From contig JAGCPV010000045.1 in NCBI GenBank assembly GCA_017965475.1, positions 1 through 34,957 of the forward strand: a DNA stretch of 34,957 bases. The letters are read 5' to 3'. This DNA is from Prevotella sp. Lineage in GTDB: Bacteria; Bacteroidota; Bacteroidia; Bacteroidales; Bacteroidaceae. This document shows positions 4,446 through 19,811 of the stretch, in pieces; the stretch's first letter is position 1, and the number at the start of each line of letters is the position of its first letter. The notes under the pieces are model-generated. The model saw nothing but the letters and a program-made list of their open reading frames with translations. It had not been told where the DNA came from and searched no databases. The translations under genes and the position numbers were made by a program.

Positions 4446-4530
4446 CATTGAAAACAGAGTGAATATCACTTTCTGTAATATTGGTAATTCTTTCCAAGAT
4501 TTGGGTAGTGCCTGATTGATAGAATCGTCG

Positions 4531-4539
4531 TACCTTTGC
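4531..4539 (+). promoter_or_regulatory. -7 promoter box TACCTTTGC
   Basis: Matches TAnnTTTG and lies 18 nt before ATG 4558. Its place rules out the upstream in-frame start at 4516, which would lie outside the transcript. Confidence 0.65.
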
Positions 4540-4557
4540 CGCAGATTTCAAAACGTA

Positions 4558-5478
4558 ATGAATATGAGATATTTTGCATTGATTTTGATGTCGCTCCTGA
4601 CGGTGTGCTGCACGAAGAGCGACGAGGCAAAGGCTGCCACCGTACAGGAGGCTGGCAAGACGTTGGTGGTGTACTTTACCAGTTCTGGTAACTCACAACA
4701 GATTGCGGAAACTGTAAAGGCTCAAATGCCGTCAGCTGATGTAATTAGAATAGAAACTGTCAGAGAGACGACAAACGATGAATACATTGCCAATAATTAT
4801 GCTTTAGGCAATGAATTGCTTCAGAAGATTAATGACAACCCAGAAAGTGCTGACAGCTATCCTGCCATCAAACCTGTTGAGAAGGATTGCGCTGACTACG
4901 ACAATGTCATCTTCGTCACACCTCTGTGGCATTCGCAAATGGCAGCTCCGGCACAGAGTTACTTGTTTCAGAATCGTTCGAAACTGGCGGGCAAGTATTT
5001 TGGCATGATTGTTTCGAGCTGGAGTAGCGGTATCAGTACCGTAGTAAGTAATGCCCGCAGACTAGTTCCTGACGTAGTATGGATGGGCGAATCGCTTTGG
5101 ATTAACCATAGCAACCACTCAAATCGTGCTTCGCTGATACAGGACTGGCTGCCAACACTGAACTTCGCAGGAAAACAAACTACTATGGATAAAATGTATA
5201 TTACTATCGACGGCCTGCCCACTGTGGCTTACTTCGCCGACAAGGCCTGTCTGTCGCCCAATTACTTTGGCGATCTGATTAGTAAGGAGAGCGGCACTAC
5301 CGCCCAGCGCCATATTCAGGATGCCGTCATTGAGCGTTCCAAGCAACTCCTCATCGAGACCCGTCTGCCCGTCAGCGAAATCGCCTACCAACTCGGCTTT
5401 GAATACCCGCAACACTTCTCGCGCCTGTTCAAGTCGCGCACAGGTATGACACCGAATGCATATAGATTAACAGCGTAA
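4558..5478 (+). CDS. Lipoprotein-type flavodoxin fused to an AraC helix-turn-helix domain
   Basis: 306 residues from ATG 4558 (or 304 from 4564), chosen because the -7 box lies at 4531. The N-terminus (MRYFALILMSLLTVCCTKSD) looks like a lipoprotein signal, although the lipobox is weak. Residues about 33-205 are a flavodoxin: TLVVYFTSSGNSQQIAETV is the FMN phosphate loop, and DNVIFVTPLWHSQMAAPAQS and MIVSSWSSGIS are the later flavin contacts. From about residue 215 the protein is a full AraC double helix-turn-helix (LSPNYFGDLISKESG, LPVSEIAYQLGFEYPQHFSR, GMTPNAYR). Export and DNA binding conflict, so this is either a real chimera, a deletion product, or two products from one gene. The alcohol dehydrogenase begins 22 nt downstream. 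Confidence 0.85.
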   Translation: MNMRYFALILMSLLTVCCTKSDEAKAATVQEAGKTLVVYFTSSGNSQQIAETVKAQMPSADVIRIETVRETTNDEYIANNYALGNELLQKINDNPESADSYPAIKPVEKDCADYDNVIFVTPLWHSQMAAPAQSYLFQNRSKLAGKYFGMIVSSWSSGISTVVSNARRLVPDVVWMGESLWINHSNHSNRASLIQDWLPTLNFAGKQTTMDKMYITIDGLPTVAYFADKACLSPNYFGDLISKESGTTAQRHIQDAVIERSKQLLIETRLPVSEIAYQLGFEYPQHFSRLFKSRTGMTPNAYRLTA

Positions 5479-5500: not shown

Positions 5501-6673
5501 ATGTTAGGCAACTTTTCTTACTACAACCCCACCAAGCTGTATTTTGGTGATGAGTCTTTGAACTTCCTCAAGGACGAACTGAAGAACTACGGCCCCGTGG
5601 TATTGCTGAACTACGGCAGCGGCAGTGTGAAGCGCAACGGTATTTACGATCTGGTGATAGCCATCCTGAAGGAGGCTGGCAAGACCATCGTGGAGAATCC
5701 TGGCGTGATGACCAATCCTACATTGGAGAAACTGAACGAGGGTGTGAAGATTGCCCGCGAGAATGAGGTGGATCTGATTCTTGCCCTCGGTGGCGGTAGC
5801 GTGTGCGACTATTCGAAGGCAGTAGCAGCATCCGTCTATTACGAGGGCGACTACTGGGATAAGTTCTGGTTGAAACAGGAACAGCCCGATGCCGACCAAA
5901 AGTTGCTACCCGTGGCTTGCATCCTGACGATGGCAGGCACAGGCTCGGAGATGAACGCCGGCACGGTGATTACCGACGCGGAGCACACGTTCAAGGTGGG
6001 CCATGTATTCGACAGCCGACTGATGCCGAAGTTCTCTATCCTGAACCCGAAGTTCACGATGACCGTCCCAGAGAATCAGATGAAGACCGGCATCTACGAC
6101 ATCATGAATCACATCATGGAGCAGTACTTCTCTGATTTCGACGATAACACGAGCGATTATCTCGCAGAAGGCTTGATGCGCTCTGTTATCCACAGCAGTC
6201 GCATCGCCTTGAAGAATCCGCAGGACTACGAAGCCCGCTCGAACATTATGTGGACGGCTACTTGGGCACTGAACACCCTCATCGGACTGGGCAAGCAGGA
6301 GGACTGGATGGTACACATGATCGGTCACAGCGTGGGTGCTTGGACGCATGCCCCTCACGGCTATACACTGGCCTCTGTCTCGATGGCGTACTATCGCAGG
6401 GCTATGGAAAACGGACTGCCCAAGTTCGTGCGCTTTGCCAAAAACGTGTGGAATATCAGCGGTGATGGTCTGACCGAACGCGAACTGGCTGAGGCTGGCT
6501 TACAGGCCCTGAAGGACTGGATGCTGGAGATCGGTCTGCCGCTCACCATCAGCGAGTTGGGTGCGACCACCGACATGATTCCTGGCATCACCGAAACCAC
6601 CGTTGTCTATCCCGCAGGCTATCTGAATCTGACGAAAGAGGATATCACAGAGATATTAAAAGAGAGTATGTAA
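5501..6673 (+). CDS. Iron-containing alcohol dehydrogenase (BdhA/YqhD-like)
   Basis: 390 residues, the full family length. The nucleotide-binding Rossmann-like part holds DLILALGGGSVCDYSKAVAA (GGGS motif), followed by ILTMAGTGSEMN. The metal-binding part has YDIMNHIMEQYF, HMIGHSVGAWTHAPHG and the helices around them, with histidines at the expected iron-ligand places. The enzymes reduce aldehydes to alcohols with NADPH in the cytoplasm. The N-terminus MLGNFSYYNPTKLYFG is the typical start. It lies 22 nt after the flavodoxin-AraC fusion and probably shares its transcript, so it may detoxify aldehydes under that regulator. It ends before a 21-bp hairpin. Confidence 0.95.
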   Translation: MLGNFSYYNPTKLYFGDESLNFLKDELKNYGPVVLLNYGSGSVKRNGIYDLVIAILKEAGKTIVENPGVMTNPTLEKLNEGVKIARENEVDLILALGGGSVCDYSKAVAASVYYEGDYWDKFWLKQEQPDADQKLLPVACILTMAGTGSEMNAGTVITDAEHTFKVGHVFDSRLMPKFSILNPKFTMTVPENQMKTGIYDIMNHIMEQYFSDFDDNTSDYLAEGLMRSVIHSSRIALKNPQDYEARSNIMWTATWALNTLIGLGKQEDWMVHMIGHSVGAWTHAPHGYTLASVSMAYYRRAMENGLPKFVRFAKNVWNISGDGLTERELAEAGLQALKDWMLEIGLPLTISELGATTDMIPGITETTVVYPAGYLNLTKEDITEILKESM

Positions 6674-6711
6674 TACCTACTTCTGATTAATCTGCTTTTG
6701 CAGGACTTTGC

Positions 6712-6756
6712 AGGTGCGCAATGCTTAAAAACCCCGTTTTTAGGTATTGCGCACCT
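6712..6756. repeat. 21-bp-stem inverted repeat overlapping a promoter
   Basis: The left arm (6712-6732) pairs base for base with the right arm (6736-6756) around a CCC loop. All 21 pairs form in RNA, two of them G-U. The outer arm is AGGTGCGCAAT. No T-run follows. The right arm contains the -33 region of the promoter whose -7 box is at 6770, so it may be an operator as well as an RNA hairpin after the dehydrogenase gene. Confidence 0.8.
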
Positions 6757-6769
6757 TATTTATTTGCCG

Positions 6770-6778
6770 TACCTTTGC
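6770..6778 (+). promoter_or_regulatory. Promoter of DUF2023-flavodoxin operon (TACCTTTGC)
   Basis: The -7 box TACCTTTG is preceded by ATTG at the -33 place with a 20-nt gap. A 13-mer TTTTTAGGTATTG (6737-6749) ends on that -33 element. The same 13-mer, gap and box recur before the porin gene at 15440-15481. It lies 20 nt before ATG 6799. Confidence 0.75.
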
Positions 6779-6798: not shown

Positions 6799-7200
6799 AT
6801 GACAACGACGAGAACAACGATTCCCACAGAACTCAAGGTACTGATGAACCACATCTACGAACTGAATAAAGGCGTGCGCCAGATGGTGCTGTTCACCTGT
6901 AAGAAGAAGTACGGCGAACAGGCCGTTTCGCGGTTGGAGAGCCAGGGCATCTCCTATGTGTTGCAGCCCGTAGGCCAGCAGAACCTGAACATCTACTTCG
7001 GACGGCGCGAGTGTCTGGAGGCCATCCGGCTCATCGTCACCCGGCCGCTGAACCAGCTCACACCCGAAGAGGACTTCATCCTCGGCGCCATGCTCGGCTA
7101 CGACCTCTGCGCACAATGCGAGCGCTACTGCAAGCGCAAGAACGGATGCAAGAGCGAGTGCAACGGGACATGCGACGGCAAATGCATCAACAAGAATTGA
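6799..7200 (+). CDS. DUF2023 family protein with cysteine-rich tail
   Basis: 133 residues from ATG 6799; the in-frame ATG at 6721 lies inside the hairpin and before the -7 box, so it is rejected. Residues about 10-105 (LMNHIYELNKGVRQMVLFTC, then LNIYFGRRECLEAIRLIV and TPEEDFILGAMLGYDLCAQC) match the DUF2023 family, small proteins typically encoded beside flavodoxin in Bacteroidota and Epsilonproteobacteria. The last 30 residues hold seven cysteines: CAQCERYC, then C-KSE-C-NGT-C-DGK-C with an even x3 spacing. This looks like a metal or Fe-S site, but no such site is established for the family as far as I know. The flavodoxin gene follows after 41 nt in the same operon. Confidence 0.85.
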   Translation: MTTTRTTIPTELKVLMNHIYELNKGVRQMVLFTCKKKYGEQAVSRLESQGISYVLQPVGQQNLNIYFGRRECLEAIRLIVTRPLNQLTPEEDFILGAMLGYDLCAQCERYCKRKNGCKSECNGTCDGKCINKN

Positions 7201-7241: not shown

Positions 7242-7736
7242 ATGAACGCAACAATTGTAATCTATGGTTCCTCGACAGGAACCTGCGAGGCCATCGCAGA
7301 GAAGATCGCCTCGAAACTGGGCTGCGAGGCCCTGAACGTACAGGACCTGACAGCCGACATCGTCAGCGCCCACCAGAATCTGATCCTCGGCACTTCGACA
7401 TGGGGTGCAGGAGAATTGCAGGATGACTGGTATGACGGACTGAAGACACTCCAAGGTGCTGACCTCAGCGGCAAGACCATCGCCATCTTTGGCTGTGGTG
7501 ACTGCGCAACCTACAGCGACACCTTCGTAGGCGGTATGGGCGAACTCTACAACGGTATCAAGGAAAGCGGTGCCAAATTCATTGGCTTAGTTGAGACCGA
7601 CGGCTACACCTTCGACGACTCGGAGGCTGTGATCGACGGTAAATTCATCGGTCTGCCCCTCGATGACATCAATGAGGACGACAAGACCGACACCCGCATC
7701 GAGGCTTGGCTCACCGCTATCACTCCCGATCTTTAG
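7242..7736 (+). CDS. fldA: Flavodoxin
   Basis: 164 residues. IVIYGSSTGTCEAIAEKIAS is the FMN phosphate-binding loop (T/S-x-T-G-x-T type). NLILGTSTWGAGELQDDWYD gives the tryptophan of the 60s loop, and AIFGCGDCATYSDTFVGGMG gives the 90s loop with its tyrosine. TDGYTFDDSEAVIDGKFIGL is the long-chain insertion. Flavodoxins carry low-potential electrons in place of ferredoxin, often when iron is short. Its partner upstream is the DUF2023 gene. The promoter of the pair resembles that of the porin-imelysin operon, consistent with iron-linked control. Confidence 0.97.
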   Translation: MNATIVIYGSSTGTCEAIAEKIASKLGCEALNVQDLTADIVSAHQNLILGTSTWGAGELQDDWYDGLKTLQGADLSGKTIAIFGCGDCATYSDTFVGGMGELYNGIKESGAKFIGLVETDGYTFDDSEAVIDGKFIGLPLDDINEDDKTDTRIEAWLTAITPDL

Positions 7737-7778
7737 TCAAAAAAAAGTTCATAAAGTATTTGTTTAGTTTTAGTTGGT

Positions 7779-7808
7779 GGTTGGCTGCGATGGTCAGCCA
7801 CCTTATTT
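7779..7808 (+). terminator. Possible terminator after flavodoxin
   Basis: GGT-T-GGCTG (7779-7787) pairs with CAGCCACC (7795-7802) with one bulge; eight pairs around a 7-nt loop, then TTATTTTA. The T-tract is weak, so read-through into the methyltransferase gene is possible. Confidence 0.45.
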
Positions 7809-7824
7809 TAAAAAGAAAACGTTA

Positions 7825-8436
7825 ATGGGACTAGTAAAGAAACTTTTCACAAACTGTGCCTGTCCGCAAGGACGGATGGGACGCGCCATACTGAAGTTCA
7901 TGAACCTCTGTCATGCGCCACTGACGAACTGGGGTCTGAAACTCGTCGATATCCAGGACGGCTGGACGATGCTCGACATCGGCTGCGGCGGAGGGGCAAC
8001 CTTGCAACGGCTGTTGAAACGGAGCCAAGACGCACAGGTCTATGGTATCGACATCTCTGAGGAGAGCGTGGCAAAGGCCAAGAAGGTGAATGCCGATGTG
8101 CTCGACAAACAGGTCTTTGTCACTCAGGGCTCAGCCGAGAAGCTTCCCTACGAAGACGGGAAGTTTGACCTTGTGACGGCTGTAGAGACAGTGTATTTCT
8201 GGCCCAACCTGCCTAATTGTCTGCAGGAGGTACACCGTGTGCTGAAGCCTGGTGGTAAGTTCGCCATCATGGTGGAAGTCATTGATGGTGACTCCATGTG
8301 GACGAATGTCGTCGAGGGCATGACAGCCTATTCGCCAGAGGAATTGAAGACCATGCTCGATGACGCTGGCTTCATCCAAACGGAGATTCATCGTATGAAG
8401 CCATCGAATGCGACTATCATTGGCGTAAAAGCATAA
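7825..8436 (+). CDS. Class I SAM-dependent methyltransferase
   Basis: 203 residues from ATG 7825; a TTG-started extension to 7774 runs through the hairpin and is not favoured. Motif I is LDIGCGGGATLQRLL (about residues 51-65), followed by VYGIDISEESVAKAK (motif II), GSAEKLPYEDGKFDLVTAVE (motifs III-IV) and VLKPGGKFAIMVE (motif VI). This is the Methyltransf_11 / UbiE-like layout. The N-terminus MGLVKKLFTNCACPQGRMG has two cysteines before the fold. The substrate is not identifiable; small molecules are common for this type. The gene follows flavodoxin by 88 nt and is convergent with the surface-protein operon, 22 nt apart. Confidence 0.9.
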   Translation: MGLVKKLFTNCACPQGRMGRAILKFMNLCHAPLTNWGLKLVDIQDGWTMLDIGCGGGATLQRLLKRSQDAQVYGIDISEESVAKAKKVNADVLDKQVFVTQGSAEKLPYEDGKFDLVTAVETVYFWPNLPNCLQEVHRVLKPGGKFAIMVEVIDGDSMWTNVVEGMTAYSPEELKTMLDDAGFIQTEIHRMKPSNATIIGVKA

Positions 8437-14318: not shown

Positions 14319-14355
14319 ACCTCCTACTGGGGCCTGGCCCCGGCACTAAAGTTTT
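14319..14355. repeat. REP-like palindrome, copy B
   Basis: Inverted relative to copy A: ACCTCCTACTGGGG, then CCTGG, then CCCCGGCACTAAAGTTTT. It writes the final codons and the TAG stop (14346-14348) of the hemerythrin-LuxR gene, as copy A does for the AraC gene. It probably acts as that gene's terminator. Confidence 0.85.
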
Positions 14356-15308
14356 ACTGAGGAGATATCGACGAGGTTGTTGATGATGGCGTAGATGGTC
14401 AGGCCGGCGGGGGAGTGGATCTGCAGCTTGCGGGCGATGTTACGACGGTGGGTGATGACGGTGTTCACGGAGATGCAGAGGTGGTCGGCGATCTCCTTGT
14501 TCGACATGCCCTGTACCAGTGAGATGATCACATCCTTCTCGCGGTCGGAGAGGGCATCGGGGTTCTGGCCAACGCCAGCCTTGAACACCATACCGGAGAT
14601 GTTGCGCGTGACGTCGCTCTGTTTGGTCTGCTGCTCCAGACGGCGGATGGCGGGTACGAAGATTTGATCCTCCACCATCGCGTGCTGCCGCAGCCACACC
14701 TCGTTCTCGTAGATGTCGTGGAGGGTGGCGGTAAGCTGGTTGTTATGCTGTCCGTCCTGGGGTAGGTATTTGATGATCAGAAGTTTCAGTTCCCGCAGTT
14801 TCTTGTCGGCGGCGCCGTGGTGCTTGGAGAAGGTCTCCACGTTATAGTCGTTGGCGGGCTGTCCGTCGATCAGCGACTGCACGTAGGGAAAGAGCGTCTT
14901 CTGCTCATATTTCATGTGACGGCGTATCTCGTGGGCATACTCATCGTAGAAGCGCAGGATCAGTTTGGCCAGCGACTCACTCTCGTCGATGGACTCTTGC
15001 AGCTCGCGGCGGATATAGGGCAACTGGAAGTCGAGGAAATAGGCATGGCTGGCTTCGAGATAGTGGAGCAGGGTGGGGACGGACAACTGCTCGTCGGCCT
15101 CAAACTCCCCATACCCGTTGATGGTGAAGTTAACCACCGCCAGGAAGGTATAGGTATCCACGTCGTTGTCCTCACAGGTCTCCTTGACCGTCTTATCTCC
15201 GAAACCGAGGCTGATGCCGAAGCTACCCAGCATCTGCAAGAGATCATAATTGTCGCGAATCAGCGAGATCATCTTGTCGTCGGCCTCATACATCTTCTGA
15301 TTTTTCAT
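14346..15308 (-). CDS. RIC/YtfE-like hemerythrin domain fused to LuxR helix-turn-helix
   Basis: 320 residues, no signal peptide. Residues about 20-60 (YDLLQMLGSFGISLGFGDKT ... VKETCEDNDVD) resemble the ScdA/YtfE N-terminal domain, but the usual CC pair is replaced by LG. Residues about 75-225 form a hemerythrin-like four-helix bundle. H88 (or H82), H131, E135, H163/H164, H209 and E213 repeat the spacing of the di-iron ligands known in E. coli YtfE. Residues about 250-318 are a LuxR/GerE helix-turn-helix (ALSDREKDVIISLVQGMSNK, EIADHLCISVNTVITHRRNI). No receiver domain is present, so it looks like a one-component regulator sensing oxygen, NO or iron through its di-iron site. It is divergent from the porin-imelysin operon. 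Confidence 0.9.
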   Translation of the reverse strand: MKNQKMYEADDKMISLIRDNYDLLQMLGSFGISLGFGDKTVKETCEDNDVDTYTFLAVVNFTINGYGEFEADEQLSVPTLLHYLEASHAYFLDFQLPYIRRELQESIDESESLAKLILRFYDEYAHEIRRHMKYEQKTLFPYVQSLIDGQPANDYNVETFSKHHGAADKKLRELKLLIIKYLPQDGQHNNQLTATLHDIYENEVWLRQHAMVEDQIFVPAIRRLEQQTKQSDVTRNISGMVFKAGVGQNPDALSDREKDVIISLVQGMSNKEIADHLCISVNTVITHRRNIARKLQIHSPAGLTIYAIINNLVDISSVKL

Positions 15309-15340
15309 AACTATTCGCTACCTACTAATGATTACCGGGT

Positions 15341-15349
15341 GCAAAGGTA
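15341..15349 (-). promoter_or_regulatory. Promoter of hemerythrin-LuxR gene
   Basis: TACCTTTGC on minus (GCAAAGGTA on plus), with ATTG at the -33 place (15370-15373) and a 20-nt gap. A TTAGGTAT core lies farther upstream at 15382-15389. Confidence 0.75.
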
Positions 15350-15439
15350 GGCATTATTTCCGACTTGTGCAATAATCACAATTAGGTATTTTTCTTCCCC
15401 CCGACTACCCGAACAGGTCATTTATGGGCCATTTCATCA

Positions 15440-15481
15440 TTTTTAGGTATTGGTGATACGGTGGATTAGCCCTACCTTTGC
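15440..15481 (+). promoter_or_regulatory. Promoter of porin-imelysin operon with shared 13-mer
   Basis: TTTTTAGGTATTG (15440-15452), 20 nt, then the -7 box TACCTTTGC (15473-15481). The same 13-mer, gap and box occur before the DUF2023-flavodoxin operon (6737-6778). The last four bases (ATTG) act as the -33 element; the TTTTTAGG part is extra. Confidence 0.75.
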
Positions 15482-15503
15482 TGCCGATTTTGAATTAGTT
15501 AGT

Positions 15504-16808
15504 ATGAAAAGGTTATTGAGTGTCATCACGATTGCTGGCCTTGTTGTCACGGCTCAGGCGCAGGTGAATGCAGGCGACAGTGTGATGCAGCATGTGAAAG
15601 GAAACAGGTTGAGTGTGGGCGGCTATGGTGAGGTGGCTTACAGTCGCGAGTACTTCAGCGACCATGTCAACCGTTACAGTTCTCCTCAGAATTATAAGGA
15701 TGATCCCAGCCACGGCAAGTTCGATGTCCCCCACGCCGTGATCTATCTCGGTTATGACTTCGGTAAGGGATGGACGATGGGTACGGAGGTCGAGTTCGAG
15801 CATACGGGCACGGGCTCTGCCATCGAGAACGAGGCCGACGAGGCTGCTGAATGGGAATATGAACAGGAGAAAGGTGGTGAGGTGGAACTGGAGCAGTTCT
15901 GGATCAACAAGCGGTTCTCGAAGGCTGCCAACGTGAAGTTCGGTCATATCATCGTGCCCGTGGGTCTGAACAATGCCCACCACGAACCCCTGAATTATTT
16001 CACCGTCTATCGTCCTGAGGGTGAGAACACCATCCTGCCCTCGACATGGCACGACACGGGTATCTCCTTCTGGGGCCGTTATGGTAAGGTGAAGTATGAA
16101 CTGGAAATGGTGGCTGGCCTCAATGCCATGCTCTTCAACCGCGACAGGTGGATCCACCACGGAGCTGGTTCTCCCTTTGAGTTCAAGCCCGCCAACCAGT
16201 ATGGTTTTGCGGCCCGGGTGGATTATTACGCGATGCCCGGACTCCGTATGGGTATCAGTGGTTATTATGGCAACTCGGCCCATAATACCTATCCCAACGA
16301 CTTGAAGGGCGACGGTAAGCCTTATGACAAGGTGAACGGTACGGTGGCCATCGGCAGTGTGGATGTGACGCTGAACCGCTGGAACTGGATCGTGCGCGGA
16401 CAGGCAGACTATGGTTATGTGGGTGACACGGATAAGTTGAACACCATCAAGGATGCCAAGGCCCACGCCTCGAACTCGCCTGTGAAGAGTGCGATGATCG
16501 GCAAGAATGCCGTGAGTGTGGGTATCGAGGCCGGCTACGACCTCTTCTCACAGATCCAGAAACTGCGTCGCGACGAACAGAAGCTCTACGTCTTCGGCCG
16601 CTACGAGTACTACGACAGTTACATCCCTGCTTCGAACAAGGAGATGTTCGACTATACCAATGTGCATCGTCTGGCCTTCGGTCTGAACTATTACCCCATC
16701 CCGCAGATCGTCCTCAAGGCCGACTATAGCCTCCGCAAGCTGAAGAGCCCCTATAACAACGAACCGAGCCTGAACATCGGCATCGCCTACGAGGGATTCT
16801 TCCTTTAA
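15504..16808 (+). CDS. Outer-membrane beta-barrel porin (porin O/P-like)
   Basis: 434 residues from ATG 15504; an in-frame start at 15450 lies upstream of the -7 box and is rejected. The signal peptide is MKRLLSVITIAGLVVTAQAQ. The mature protein is made of amphipathic strands typical of 16-18-stranded porins: LSVGGYGEVAYSREYFSD, HAVIYLGYDFGKGWTMGTEV, VEFEHTGTG, NVKFGHIIVPVGLNNAHHEP, KADYSLRKLKSP and LNIGIAYEGFFL, ending in phenylalanine-leucine as outer-membrane proteins do. NHH- and acid-rich loops are present. As the first gene before an imelysin and a di-haem protein, it is likely the outer-membrane entry for iron or a related ligand; substrate unknown. Confidence 0.9.
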   Translation: MKRLLSVITIAGLVVTAQAQVNAGDSVMQHVKGNRLSVGGYGEVAYSREYFSDHVNRYSSPQNYKDDPSHGKFDVPHAVIYLGYDFGKGWTMGTEVEFEHTGTGSAIENEADEAAEWEYEQEKGGEVELEQFWINKRFSKAANVKFGHIIVPVGLNNAHHEPLNYFTVYRPEGENTILPSTWHDTGISFWGRYGKVKYELEMVAGLNAMLFNRDRWIHHGAGSPFEFKPANQYGFAARVDYYAMPGLRMGISGYYGNSAHNTYPNDLKGDGKPYDKVNGTVAIGSVDVTLNRWNWIVRGQADYGYVGDTDKLNTIKDAKAHASNSPVKSAMIGKNAVSVGIEAGYDLFSQIQKLRRDEQKLYVFGRYEYYDSYIPASNKEMFDYTNVHRLAFGLNYYPIPQIVLKADYSLRKLKSPYNNEPSLNIGIAYEGFFL

Positions 16809-16841
16809 AACGACAACGAATTACGAATTAAACGAATTAAT

Positions 16842-18080
16842 ATGATGAAAAAGATTTTCTATTCTATGGCAGTCCTGGTGATGGGACTGGCTTTCACTGC
16901 CTGCAGCAGTGACGATGACAAAAAGGATGACAGCAAAATCACTGAGAAGGAACAGGCCATGGAGGCCATCACCAATAAGTATGTGAGCAACGTGATCTTC
17001 CCGATCTACAAGTCGTTGGCTTCGCAGACCTCAACCCTCTTCGACCAGCTTGTAGAGGCCAAGAGCAAGTTCCGTGCCGGTACGCTCACCCAGGCTGACA
17101 TCGACAAGATCTGTTCTACCTTCATCGCCGCCCGTTCGGCCTGGGAGAGCAGTGAGTCGTTCCTCTATGGTGCAGCCACTGACTTCGGTATCGATCCCCA
17201 TATCGACACCTGGCCCCTTGACCGTACAGCCTTGGCCAAGGCCCTGAGCAGTGCGGAGATCATTGAGGATCTCGACGACCTCGACGACGGTGGTATCGAC
17301 AATGCCCGTGCCCTCGTGGGTGAGCAGCAGCTGGGCTTCCATGGCATCGAGTTCATCATCTTCCGTAACGGTCAGAACCGTACCCTCGCTGCCCTGCAGG
17401 GTATTGAGGACGATGAGGCTTTTGAGGGCCGTAACATCACAGGTGAACAGGAACTGATCTTCGCCGCTGCCGTGGCAGGTGACCTGCGCGACAAGTGTTT
17501 CCAGCTGGAGGTCAGCTGGTTGGGTGACCAGGCTCCCGTCGCTCATCAGGAGCGTGTCGAGGAGTGCGAGTTCCCCACGACAGTTGCCGGTGGTGATGCC
17601 TCCTACGGTGAGAACATGCTTAACGCCACCAAGGCCGGTAGTACCTTATCTACATGGCGCAGTGTGATGAGCACCATCCTCGTGGCCGGCTGCAGCAACA
17701 TCTGTGCTGAGGTGGCCGGACAGAAGATCGGACAGGCTTACCTGGGTACCGACCCCGACTATATCGAGTCGCCCTATAGCCAGCGTTCCTACTTCGACTT
17801 CTTCGACAACATCAGCAGTATCCAGTACAGCCTCTATGGCAACCAGGGTACGACGGTCCATGCCAACTCGATCATGACCTATCTTGAGAAGTACAACGCC
17901 ACGATGGCCGCCGATCTGAAGGCGAAGCTCGAAGCCGCCCTCTCGGCACTGAGCACCGCTAAGGCAGGCACCCCGTTCGTGGTCGATTCCCACAGTGCCA
18001 ATGCCAAGGCAGCGATGGATGCCATCAACACCCTCGACGATGCCCTCAACGAAGCCGCTTCCTGGATTTCTGCGAACTAA
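16842..18080 (+). CDS. Imelysin family lipoprotein (EfeO/IrpA-like)
   Basis: 412 residues; the start could also be 16845. The lipoprotein signal ends LAFTACSSDDD. The imelysin fold is marked by ITNKYVSNVIFPIYKSLASQ, FIAARSAWESSESFLYGAAT, DFGIDPHIDTWPLD and the GxHxxE motif GFHGIE (H167, E170). Family members (peptidase M75 group) are periplasmic or surface proteins linked to iron uptake, and no proteolysis is assumed. It follows the porin by 33 nt and precedes the di-haem oxidoreductase by 12 nt. The imelysin plus di-haem oxidoreductase pairing is a known genomic association. Confidence 0.93.
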   Translation: MMKKIFYSMAVLVMGLAFTACSSDDDKKDDSKITEKEQAMEAITNKYVSNVIFPIYKSLASQTSTLFDQLVEAKSKFRAGTLTQADIDKICSTFIAARSAWESSESFLYGAATDFGIDPHIDTWPLDRTALAKALSSAEIIEDLDDLDDGGIDNARALVGEQQLGFHGIEFIIFRNGQNRTLAALQGIEDDEAFEGRNITGEQELIFAAAVAGDLRDKCFQLEVSWLGDQAPVAHQERVEECEFPTTVAGGDASYGENMLNATKAGSTLSTWRSVMSTILVAGCSNICAEVAGQKIGQAYLGTDPDYIESPYSQRSYFDFFDNISSIQYSLYGNQGTTVHANSIMTYLEKYNATMAADLKAKLEAALSALSTAKAGTPFVVDSHSANAKAAMDAINTLDDALNEAASWISAN

Positions 18081-18092
18081 TGAGTTAAATAT

Positions 18093-19811
18093 ATGATCAT
18101 GAACAAGAAATTGCAATTCTTGGTCATGGCAGTCCTCTCCATGGGGACTGCCATGACGTCGTGTACGGACGATGATGACAACGGCGGTAGTGTCAGTCCC
18201 ATTGAAGCCGACTATATCGGCAAGAACGTGGGTAACTTCTCCGCCGAGGAGTGGTTCGTAGGCGGAGAGAAAGGTACCACGATGAACGTCACCCAAGGTT
18301 GTTATGAGGATGAGACACCCGCCGTCACGGAGATGGGACTCACCGAGGCTTTCAACCGTGGTGAACAGTTCTTCGAGCGTAATGTCACCGAGTTCCAGGC
18401 ACCCTTCAACGGACTGGGTCCTGCCTATGTCCGTAAGTCGTGTCTCGACTGCCATCCCGGCTATGGTCATGGCAAGCGTGTGACGCAGTACAATGCCGAG
18501 TGGGGTAATGGCTACCTGCTCGTGATCTACCATCCTGTCGATGGTGAGAACAGTGATGATGGTCCCTACGTGAGTGAGGTGACGGGTATGCCGCAGACGC
18601 GTGCCGTCAGTCCTTTCCTGCCACCTGTCGATGAGAGTGGTATCCACCTGAGTTGGCTGCCGCTGACCACGATGGGTGACGACAGTGAGATCTCTGCCAC
18701 CCAGTTCCCCGATGGTGAGCGCTATGAGCTGATATACCCAGAACTGAGTATCGACCCCTCTGCCTTCAACACCAACCCCACCCCGTGGGAGACGGGCAAC
18801 GGTGCCGTGGCCTTCCGTCTGGAGAGCACCATCGGCATCATCGGCTCTGGTCTGCTCGATGCCATCCCCGACGATAGTATCAAGGCACAGTACCAGCGCG
18901 AGGCTCCCTATGTGGAGTTGAATCCCGCCTTCTGGGATAAGGAGGCCAACGACTTCGCTGAAACGGCGTGGTATGTCAACGCCTCCAGCGGTTTGGAGCA
19001 GGTGAACCGTCTGAAGAAGTTCACCTATGCCATGACCCGTGGTTCGCTGCAGGACGGTGCCGGTGCCAATGCCATCTGGAACATCACCAACGTGAGCCGT
19101 TCCGACCGTCCGAAGTTGTACTCCACCGAACCGTGGGCGAAGGCCATGTCGGAGAATCCCAACGTGATTGCCGCCATCAAGGCCGACCCCACGTCGCCCT
19201 ACTATGCCGACGGTACCGAGGAGGGCATCCGGGAGGCTGTCTATAACCTGCTGTTGCCCTCCACCAACCAGTTCGACAATGTCTGGCACAACTTCCAGCC
19301 AGAGATGAGCGACAACAACTTCTGGGCCTTCCAGGTGTGGCATCGTGGTCTGGCCATTCCCCGTGCCCGTAACCTGCAGGATCCTGAGGTTCAGCGCGGT
19401 AAAGATGTGTTCAACGAGATCGGCTGTGCCACCTGCCATCGTCCGTCGTGGAAGACGACCAGCGATGACTACTGGAGTCCGCTGATCATCGTCTCGCAGA
19501 ATCTGCAGCTGCCCCGTTATCAGAACCAGACCATCTGGCCCTATACCGACATGATCCAGCATCGTCTGTATATGAAGAACGGCATCCACGGTTCGTGGTG
19601 TCGTACCACCCCGCTCTGGGGTCGTGGACTCTCGCTGATCAATACCGGTGCTGAAGACCGTCTGCACGACTGTCGCGCCCGCAACGAGATAGAGGCCATC
19701 CTCTGGCATGGCTACTCGAAGAAGAGCGATGCCTATGGAGCGACGCTGAAGTTCTATAAGCTGCCCAAGGCTGATCGCGATGCAGTGGTGAAATTCCTGA
19801 GAGCCATTTGA
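18093..19811 (+). CDS. Di-haem c oxidoreductase (DHOR family) lipoprotein
   Basis: 572 residues (alternative start 18099). The lipoprotein signal ends AMTSCTDDDD. There are two c-type haem sites: C117-x-x-C120-H121 (CLDCH) and C445-x-x-C448-H449 (CATCH). Family landmarks follow: IWPYTDMIQHRLYMKNGI, RTTPLWGRGL, and LHDCRARNEIEAILWHGYSK near the C-terminus. DHOR proteins resemble cytochrome c peroxidases and were earlier called thiol oxidoreductases; their true reaction is uncertain. Cysteines in SWCRT and LHDCRA are close enough in sequence order to form a disulfide. It needs cytochrome c maturation, and the next gene, overlapping by one base, resembles part of that machinery. Confidence 0.92.
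   Translation: MIMNKKLQFLVMAVLSMGTAMTSCTDDDDNGGSVSPIEADYIGKNVGNFSAEEWFVGGEKGTTMNVTQGCYEDETPAVTEMGLTEAFNRGEQFFERNVTEFQAPFNGLGPAYVRKSCLDCHPGYGHGKRVTQYNAEWGNGYLLVIYHPVDGENSDDGPYVSEVTGMPQTRAVSPFLPPVDESGIHLSWLPLTTMGDDSEISATQFPDGERYELIYPELSIDPSAFNTNPTPWETGNGAVAFRLESTIGIIGSGLLDAIPDDSIKAQYQREAPYVELNPAFWDKEANDFAETAWYVNASSGLEQVNRLKKFTYAMTRGSLQDGAGANAIWNITNVSRSDRPKLYSTEPWAKAMSENPNVIAAIKADPTSPYYADGTEEGIREAVYNLLLPSTNQFDNVWHNFQPEMSDNNFWAFQVWHRGLAIPRARNLQDPEVQRGKDVFNEIGCATCHRPSWKTTSDDYWSPLIIVSQNLQLPRYQNQTIWPYTDMIQHRLYMKNGIHGSWCRTTPLWGRGLSLINTGAEDRLHDCRARNEIEAILWHGYSKKSDAYGATLKFYKLPKADRDAVVKFLRAI

Follow-up and report, generated by a model that had tools for sequence, protein, structure and literature searches.

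What does a protein do that joins a di-iron domain of the YtfE/RIC type to a LuxR-type helix-turn-helix, and which genes does it serve? This question is raised by a gene of a Prevotella sp. (contig JAGCPV010000045.1 of assembly GCA_017965475.1), which lies divergently from a porin-imelysin-di-haem operon in the 34,957-nucleotide stretch of DNA that was analysed as a whole and is called the window below. The first-pass annotation had taken its product for a one-component regulator and a candidate sensor of NO, oxygen or iron. Judging from its sequence and its neighbourhoods, this protein is probably a fused CdhR that acts as a one-component activator of an iron-starvation regulon in Prevotella-type Bacteroidaceae, in which the di-iron site is likely an iron gauge. 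The features of the regulator and of the divergent operon are the following.

14346..15308 (-), fused CdhR-type regulator, 320 aa (ScdA-like N-domain, RIC-type hemerythrin domain and LuxR/GerE helix-turn-helix)
15084..15308 (-), ScdA_N-like N-domain, residues 1-75 (approximate), from profile alignment to ScdA/YtfE; the CC of YtfE/ScdA is replaced by G35-F36; invariant C45
14646..15071 (-), hemerythrin domain, residues 80-221, with ligands H88, H131, E135, H164, H209 and E213 (Pfam and alignments)
14388..14555 (-), GerE/LuxR helix-turn-helix, residues 252-307 (Pfam)
15504..16808 (+), outer-membrane beta-barrel protein resembling a porin, with which the divergent operon begins (best Pfam match OMP_b-brl, 20.5 bits, under the cut-off)
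16842..18080 (+), imelysin (Peptidase_M75) lipoprotein (Pfam)
18093..19811 (+), di-haem oxidoreductase (DHOR; Pfam)

Translation of the open reading frame and Pfam bear out the gene, its coordinates and its domains as first proposed. The RIC/YtfE-type hemerythrin domain occupies residues 80-221 (Pfam Hemerythrin, E 5e-14, well above the cut-off) and the GerE helix-turn-helix residues 252-307 (E 8e-17, 61 bits against a cut-off of 23.5); the latter had been thought to follow the di-iron domain directly, and the order holds, with a linker of about 30 residues in between. Because a match at E <= 1e-20, nearly always aligned over the full length, is found in 106 of 120 genomes of the genus, the reading frame is not due to chance. 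A match at this threshold was also obtained in the family sample for 180 of 201 genomes, representing 28 of 30 genera; some of the weaker ones may be other hemerythrins. The window protein is the one hemerythrin-family match in its own genome, which is 85% complete. With Pfam, neither the fused protein nor either of the two split LuxR partners scanned (see below) showed a phospho-receiver domain at E <= 1, and a phospho-relay through a receiver was rejected on this ground.

A hemerythrin profile built from eight parts (the window protein and seven stand-alone relatives) matched ScdA (9j47) over nearly the whole chain (2-223; E 1.8e-6) and YtfE (5fnn) with an E of 1.3e-5. In the profile alignment, H88, H131, E135, H164, H209 and E213 pair with H84, H129, E133, H160, H204 and E208, the ligands given for YtfE in the relevant part of PMC9268430. 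These six residues, together with C45, do not vary in any of the 33 rows of an alignment that comprises 26 fused proteins, the window protein among them, and seven stand-alone relatives, and that leaves out two further distant matches (L031 and L033). The YtfE-like ligand spacing proposed earlier is thus confirmed, and the choice left between H163 and H164 falls on H164, as H163 varies. The canonical hemerythrin has a fifth histidine in its third motif, HxxxH, as described in a passage of PMC10101095; this histidine was not found here, the residue four positions after H164 being D168 (85 D, one G and one S in an 87-row set). The curated RIC model TIGR03652 gave 50.1 bits with the window protein and 41-79 bits with the five stand-alone relatives scanned, all below its cut-off of 204.7, and with a score so far below the cut-off a plain YtfE/RIC enzyme was rejected.

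The CC pair of YtfE and ScdA was said to be replaced by LG, and its loss was read as the turning of a repair enzyme into a sensor. The pair is indeed absent, but the profile alignment places it opposite G35-F36, one residue from the L-G, and G35-F36 is fixed in 26 of 26 fused rows. The argument from cysteine loss is weaker than claimed, since CC is missing from this place in the seven aligned stand-alone relatives as well, and C45 is kept in every row. Part of PMC9268430 describes E125 and E159 of YtfE as glutamates that control iron release, and these correspond to positions 127 and 163 of the window protein. Position 127 is E in 7/7 stand-alone relatives and in 6/26 fused rows, the window protein (E127) among these six, and is E throughout the 87-row set, which consists mostly of close orthologs; position 163 is H in 24 of the 26 fused rows, again including the window protein (H163). 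Both positions would fit a change from iron donor to sensor in part of the family, although they prove nothing.

Hemerythrin and CdhR gene pairs were described in PMC10434189 (2023) for P. gingivalis (PG1236-PG1237) and B. thetaiotaomicron (BT_0519-0520), and a figure legend in that paper gives a fused hemerythrin-CdhR, PIN17_RS10465, in P. intermedia. According to passages of the same paper, low iron induces these pairs 6.9-7.3-fold in P. gingivalis and 16-20-fold in B. theta, and in B. theta the flavodoxin and DUF2023 genes belong to those that low iron induces most strongly (PMC10434189). CdhR is named as an activator of the hmu (haem uptake) genes of P. gingivalis in citing passages of PMC10101095, where cdhR of this species is also reported to be down in microaerophilic conditions. 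In our material, two g2 genomes examined closely (L026 and L027) have a 234-aa hemerythrin gene that overlaps a LuxR gene of ~203 aa beside fldA; these split pairs share 51% identity with the window protein in the hemerythrin part and 57-60% in the helix-turn-helix. A hemerythrin domain fused to a LuxR-type protein in the window, or paired with one in L026 and L027, is what characterises the CdhR type, and its tie to iron-starvation genes is seen by association only, in that the box described below precedes a flavodoxin gene, the porin-imelysin operon, TonB receptors and one HmuY gene. Judging from the sequence, the window protein is the fused form of the CdhR regulator; because pairs and fusion have been reported (PMC10434189), its architecture is already in print and it is a further member. 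The one-component reading of the first-pass annotation stands, while neither the printed CdhR nor a target set beyond the divergent operon had been foreseen.

The spacer between the regulator and the porin gene (15309-15503) holds two copies of one motif, O1 and O2, each of which ends on a -33 TTG with TAnnTTTG exactly 20 nt on. The motif precedes the regulator, the divergent porin-imelysin-di-haem operon and a DUF2023-flavodoxin gene pair 8.7 kb away. The sites and the genes of that pair are listed here.

15370..15390 (-), candidate operator O1 of the regulator's own promoter, AATACCTAATTGTGATTATTG, with its end on the -33 TTG
15342..15349 (-), -7 element TACCTTTG of the regulator promoter, 20 nt from the TTG
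15319..15334 (-), O3, third operator-like dyad, TAATCATTAGTAGGTA, directly following the regulator's -7 element and possibly a site of autorepression
15432..15452 (+), candidate operator O2 of the porin promoter, TTTCATCATTTTTAGGTATTG, likewise with its end on the -33 TTG
15473..15480 (+), -7 element TACCTTTG of the porin promoter
6672..6689 (+), weak operator-like site AATACCTACTTCTGATTA, with one mismatch, upstream of the fldA promoter
6729..6749 (+), candidate operator before DUF2023-fldA, whose right half TTTTTAGGTATTG ends on the -33 element; -7 element TACCTTTG at 6770-6777
6799..7200 (+), DUF2023 protein
7242..7736 (+), flavodoxin FldA (NF006738, 196 bits against a cut-off of 172)

By computation, we propose as new here the candidate palindromic operator AATACCTA-N4-TAGGTATTG, which ends on the -33 TTG and is followed 20 nt on by TAnnTTTG. 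An operator or target set for CdhR or its fused form was not found in the literature searched; the original CdhR papers lie outside that coverage, and an earlier mapping is possible. The weak site AATACCTACTTCTGATTA may be due to chance, because a similar one-mismatch match elsewhere lies within a gene.

Exact matches to TANGTATTG-N20-TANNTTTG number three in the window's genome (before the porin gene, at 6741-6777 before DUF2023-fldA, and before a DUF2023-fldA copy on contig C151), against one match of the reversed control with up to one mismatch. The bare 11-mer TTTAGGTATTG occurs four times in this genome (reversed control, one), three times with the promoter element exactly 20 nt on; the fourth copy lies within a coding frame. 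For the core pattern AATACCTAANNNTGATNA with up to two mismatches, the genome gave 20 matches against 14 for the reversed control, and only the two exact matches, both in the spacer, are taken as evidence, one of the two one-mismatch matches lying inside a gene. A looser consensus with three mismatches was dropped as not clearly better than shuffled sequence (five matches in the whole window against a shuffle mean of 2.6, five being reached by 9 of 100 shuffles), and a stricter 48-base pattern found the fldA site only, missing the porin site. Four one-mismatch matches to the promoter pattern, which include a match upstream of a TonB receptor gene on contig C66 and another inside the window's AraC gene, are near chance and were left uncounted. 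In the genome of the window itself, the genes behind the boxes include no haem-uptake gene.

Several neighbouring observations are recorded in their own right. A SAM methyltransferase gene lies directly after fldA (7774-8436, +), and its relative in L238 has an operator-like box of its own. In the open reading frame at 4516-5478 (+), a signal that by eye resembles that of a lipoprotein is joined to a flavodoxin domain (PF12682) and, at the C-terminus, to an AraC helix-turn-helix (PF12833); this is either a topologically odd, exported-looking flavodoxin-DNA-binding fusion or a misread start or fusion. On contig C151 of the window's genome (L144, 237-3066), the second DUF2023-fldA, with the same operator, is followed by a ferritin gene and then by a convergent LuxR gene without a recognised receiver, after which hemN, hemG and hemE were read by eye. 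This may be a further regulator locus for iron or haem, or else a sign that the assembly contains two strains.

The arrangement is well kept in orthologous loci. Among 86 distinct leaders of close orthologs, 84 have the own-promoter pattern, always with N20, and 78 of these 84 begin exactly with AATACCTA; the porin-side promoter is present in 69, of which 63 end in TAGGTATTG, and at least two of the 17 leaders that lack it have too little upstream DNA. A near-perfect palindrome is possible in more divergent orthologs (e.g., ATTACCTAAAAGTAGGTATTG in L249), and by eye the box could be read in 16 of 25 divergent fused orthologs, nine having no clear own-promoter box. The split locus L027, also read by eye, has AATACCTAATAATGGTGATTG in the equivalent position ahead of its hemerythrin gene; its -7 element carries a single change. 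Near-perfect palindromes AATCACTA-N4-TAGTGATT lie between fldA and the hemerythrin gene of this locus (1340-1420), and they are perhaps a Bacteroides-type version of the operator.

The O3 dyad sits inside the presumed transcribed leader of the regulator. An O3-like pattern, made after O3 had been seen, occurs in 64 of 101 leaders with a promoter match, 62 of these with the pattern 6-7 nt after TTTG, and in 4 of 5050 letter-shuffled leaders. It is confined to the close clade, being present in 63/83 leaders of orthologs with at least 80% identity and in 1/18 below. Because a site at this place would block transcription rather than help it, O3 likely provides negative feedback on the regulator in the window's clade.

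Absence of the divergent operon offers a means of tying the box to the genes that it faces. We used 68 loci with at least 5.5 kb of upstream DNA, in which the divergent porin operon is present in 58 and absent in 10. TAGGTATTG with a promoter facing the divergent side was found in 53/58 loci with the operon and in 0/10 without it (p 1e-8, kinship ignored); the counts were 53/58 and 1/10 when no promoter was required, and 56/58 and 2/10 with a half-site that was widened after variants had been seen. The own-promoter operator O1 is kept in nine of the ten loci without the operon. These counts, and the place of O2 at the -33 element of the porin promoter, support the link to the divergent operon that had been suggested from its orientation. 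The proteins of this operon in the counterparts L037-L116 are 26-92% identical to the window's (15504-19811) in their best segments, and the regulators of the same loci are 84-95% identical. Because the operon varies so widely while the regulator stays at 84% or more, the uptake system seems to have been exchanged under one regulator.

In the genus, TTTAGGTATTG-N20-TANNTTTG is present at 200 sites in 95 of 120 genomes, and chance was rejected as its source because the reversed pattern occurs in 0/120 genus genomes and 0/201 family genomes. The left half of the site, left free in this search, carries 0.66-1.14 bits per base over six positions. We examined 95 distinct sites of the 200 (30 loci, 60 chosen regions of which one is a repeat, the window and contig C151), the chosen regions being mostly from complete or multi-site genomes. 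By BLAST clusters, the first genes behind these 95 sites are 22 TonB-receptor, 20 fldA, 15 porin and 7 DUF2023 genes, followed by 5 methyltransferase, 2 regulator, 2 LCM-type methyltransferase, 2 TetR and 18 single genes, with two sites lacking an open reading frame. The methyltransferase cluster thus stands behind 5/95 sites, and several of the 18 single genes are probably unrelated, some being doubtful reading frames. Pfam, applied to 20 downstream proteins, recognised TonB receptors (3 of the 22), methyltransferases (3 of the 5), LCM, TetR, PepSY_TM, an ABC exporter, one HmuY, a CbiX/ferrochelatase-like protein, HMA and flavodoxin; the remaining proteins were LRR or calycin-like, or without a family. 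Among the same 20 proteins, neither a nitrosative-stress gene nor a peroxide or oxygen defence enzyme was recognised, the other downstream genes having been clustered by BLAST only.

The box also follows the regulator across genomes. In the family sample it occurs in 0/21 genomes without a P0001 match and in 69/180 with one (p 1.2e-4, kinship ignored), where a match at E <= 1e-20 may include other hemerythrins and one of the 21 was assigned by exclusion; the corresponding figure outside the genus is 56/167 (p 6e-4, kinship ignored). The box adjoins the regulator in other genera too, e.g., in G553, G457, G591, G590 and G513. The genus sample is a weaker test and runs partly against this reading, with the box in 7/14 genomes without a detected regulator and in 88/106 with one (p 0.01, kinship ignored); six of these seven regulator-less genomes are under 90% complete.

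The domains, the invariant ligands and the candidate operator with its position, neighbours and conservation can be read off the sequences. From them we infer that the box is bound by the window protein, which would act there as an activator and respond to iron occupancy rather than to O2 or NO. A dimer of the regulator would bind the palindrome AATACCTA-N4-TAGGTATTG with its downstream end abutting the -33 element, and would recruit RNA polymerase to the divergent operon and the DUF2023-flavodoxin pair. In related genomes it would do so at TonB receptor and haem-capture genes as well, and it would further act on its own promoter. Class II-like activators commonly have a site that ends on -33. 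The RIC-type di-iron site would report cell iron: the iron-loaded form would hold the helix-turn-helix off, and under iron shortage uptake and iron-sparing genes would be activated by the apo or half-loaded regulator.

An iron regulator is the best reading of these gene associations, with oxygen as the signal, or another owner of the box, as its rivals. The box could belong to Fur, a homolog of which is present in the window's genome (E 7e-6), or to another of the LuxR proteins found there, in which case the fused protein would be merely one more target. One of these is the 194-aa LuxR paralog near the second fldA and ferritin, with TVITHRKNI in its recognition-helix region where the fused protein has TVITHRRNI, and the half of the regulator-less genus genomes that keep the box also speaks for such an owner. 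We nevertheless consider it rather unlikely, given that the box recurs at the regulator's own locus, in other genera as well, and is missing from all 21 sampled family genomes without a P0001 match; in addition, the dyad form and the fixed place at -33 would fit a LuxR-type activator better than a Fur repressor.

A different signal at the same operator is an alternative of another kind. Hemerythrin-type centres react with O2 and H2O2, as stated in part of PMC12022348, and the microaerophilic decrease of P. gingivalis cdhR (PMC10101095, in the passage cited above) points the same way, so that the di-iron centre might sense oxygen, peroxide or redox state, with low iron and oxidative stress overlapping at the promoters. 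This seems unlikely to us, as most of the genes recognised behind the box serve iron saving or the uptake of iron or haem, Pfam found no oxygen or peroxide defence enzyme among the 20 proteins, and the homologous pairs respond to iron depletion in the passages of PMC10434189. The RIC-type ligands and a similarity that extends over the whole ScdA chain would also suit an NO-responsive regulator or a bifunctional iron-centre repair protein, yet this we regard as very improbable: the TIGR03652 score, the missing CC motif and H163 in place of E159 stand against it, as do the 20 of 26 fused rows without E at the E125 position (though the window protein keeps E127) and the lack of a nitrosative-stress gene among the 20 Pfam-scanned proteins. 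Of the three signals first suggested, then, iron is favoured by the low-iron induction of homologous pairs (PMC10434189, as above) and by the box before flavodoxin, TonB receptor and HmuY genes, and nothing specific to NO was found. We return to the fused CdhR as an iron-responsive activator. A wider proposal, that Bacteroidaceae gauge iron by a RIC-type di-iron centre on a LuxR helix-turn-helix, that this regulator and not Fur is their main iron-starvation activator through the -33 palindrome, and that O3 limits its own synthesis in the window's clade, is offered tentatively, as a conjecture that we ourselves hold somewhat doubtful.

The candidate operator, the target list and the six invariant ligands turn this regulator into a direct bench question in harmless gut and rumen commensals, and if our reading of the box is true, a predicted regulator site can be read before iron-scavenging genes in related genomes. 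The window protein has the same domain pair as CdhR with its hemerythrin partner, the fused form being known from P. intermedia (PMC10434189, figure legend), and differs from the pairs in that its gene is divergent from the porin-imelysin-di-haem operon. This operon resembles the Efe and imelysin-EfeB iron systems discussed in part of PMC3143127. The RIC proteins YtfE and ScdA share with it an N-domain and a hemerythrin-type domain with the same six ligands (PMC9268430, in the part cited), whereas the window protein has no CC pair, has H at the E159 position, scores far below the RIC cut-off and carries a DNA-binding domain. With LuxR regulators of the NarL/FixJ type it shares the GerE domain and a palindromic site of two half-sites. 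The NarL site, with which the candidate operator was compared, has a 7-2-7 arrangement of TACYYMT. Unlike NarL and FixJ, the fusion has no receiver domain, nor did Pfam find one in the two split partners scanned. In animals, FBXL5 is a hemerythrin iron sensor. For plants, part of PMC12022348 proposes the hemerythrin-type di-iron centre of BRUTUS as a cell iron gauge, as we do here. BRUTUS and FBXL5 are ubiquitin ligases, whereas the window protein would be a bacterial transcription regulator with a proposed sensing role; if its di-iron site is indeed a gauge, a bacterial transcription factor joins the hemerythrin folds that plants and animals use as iron sensors.
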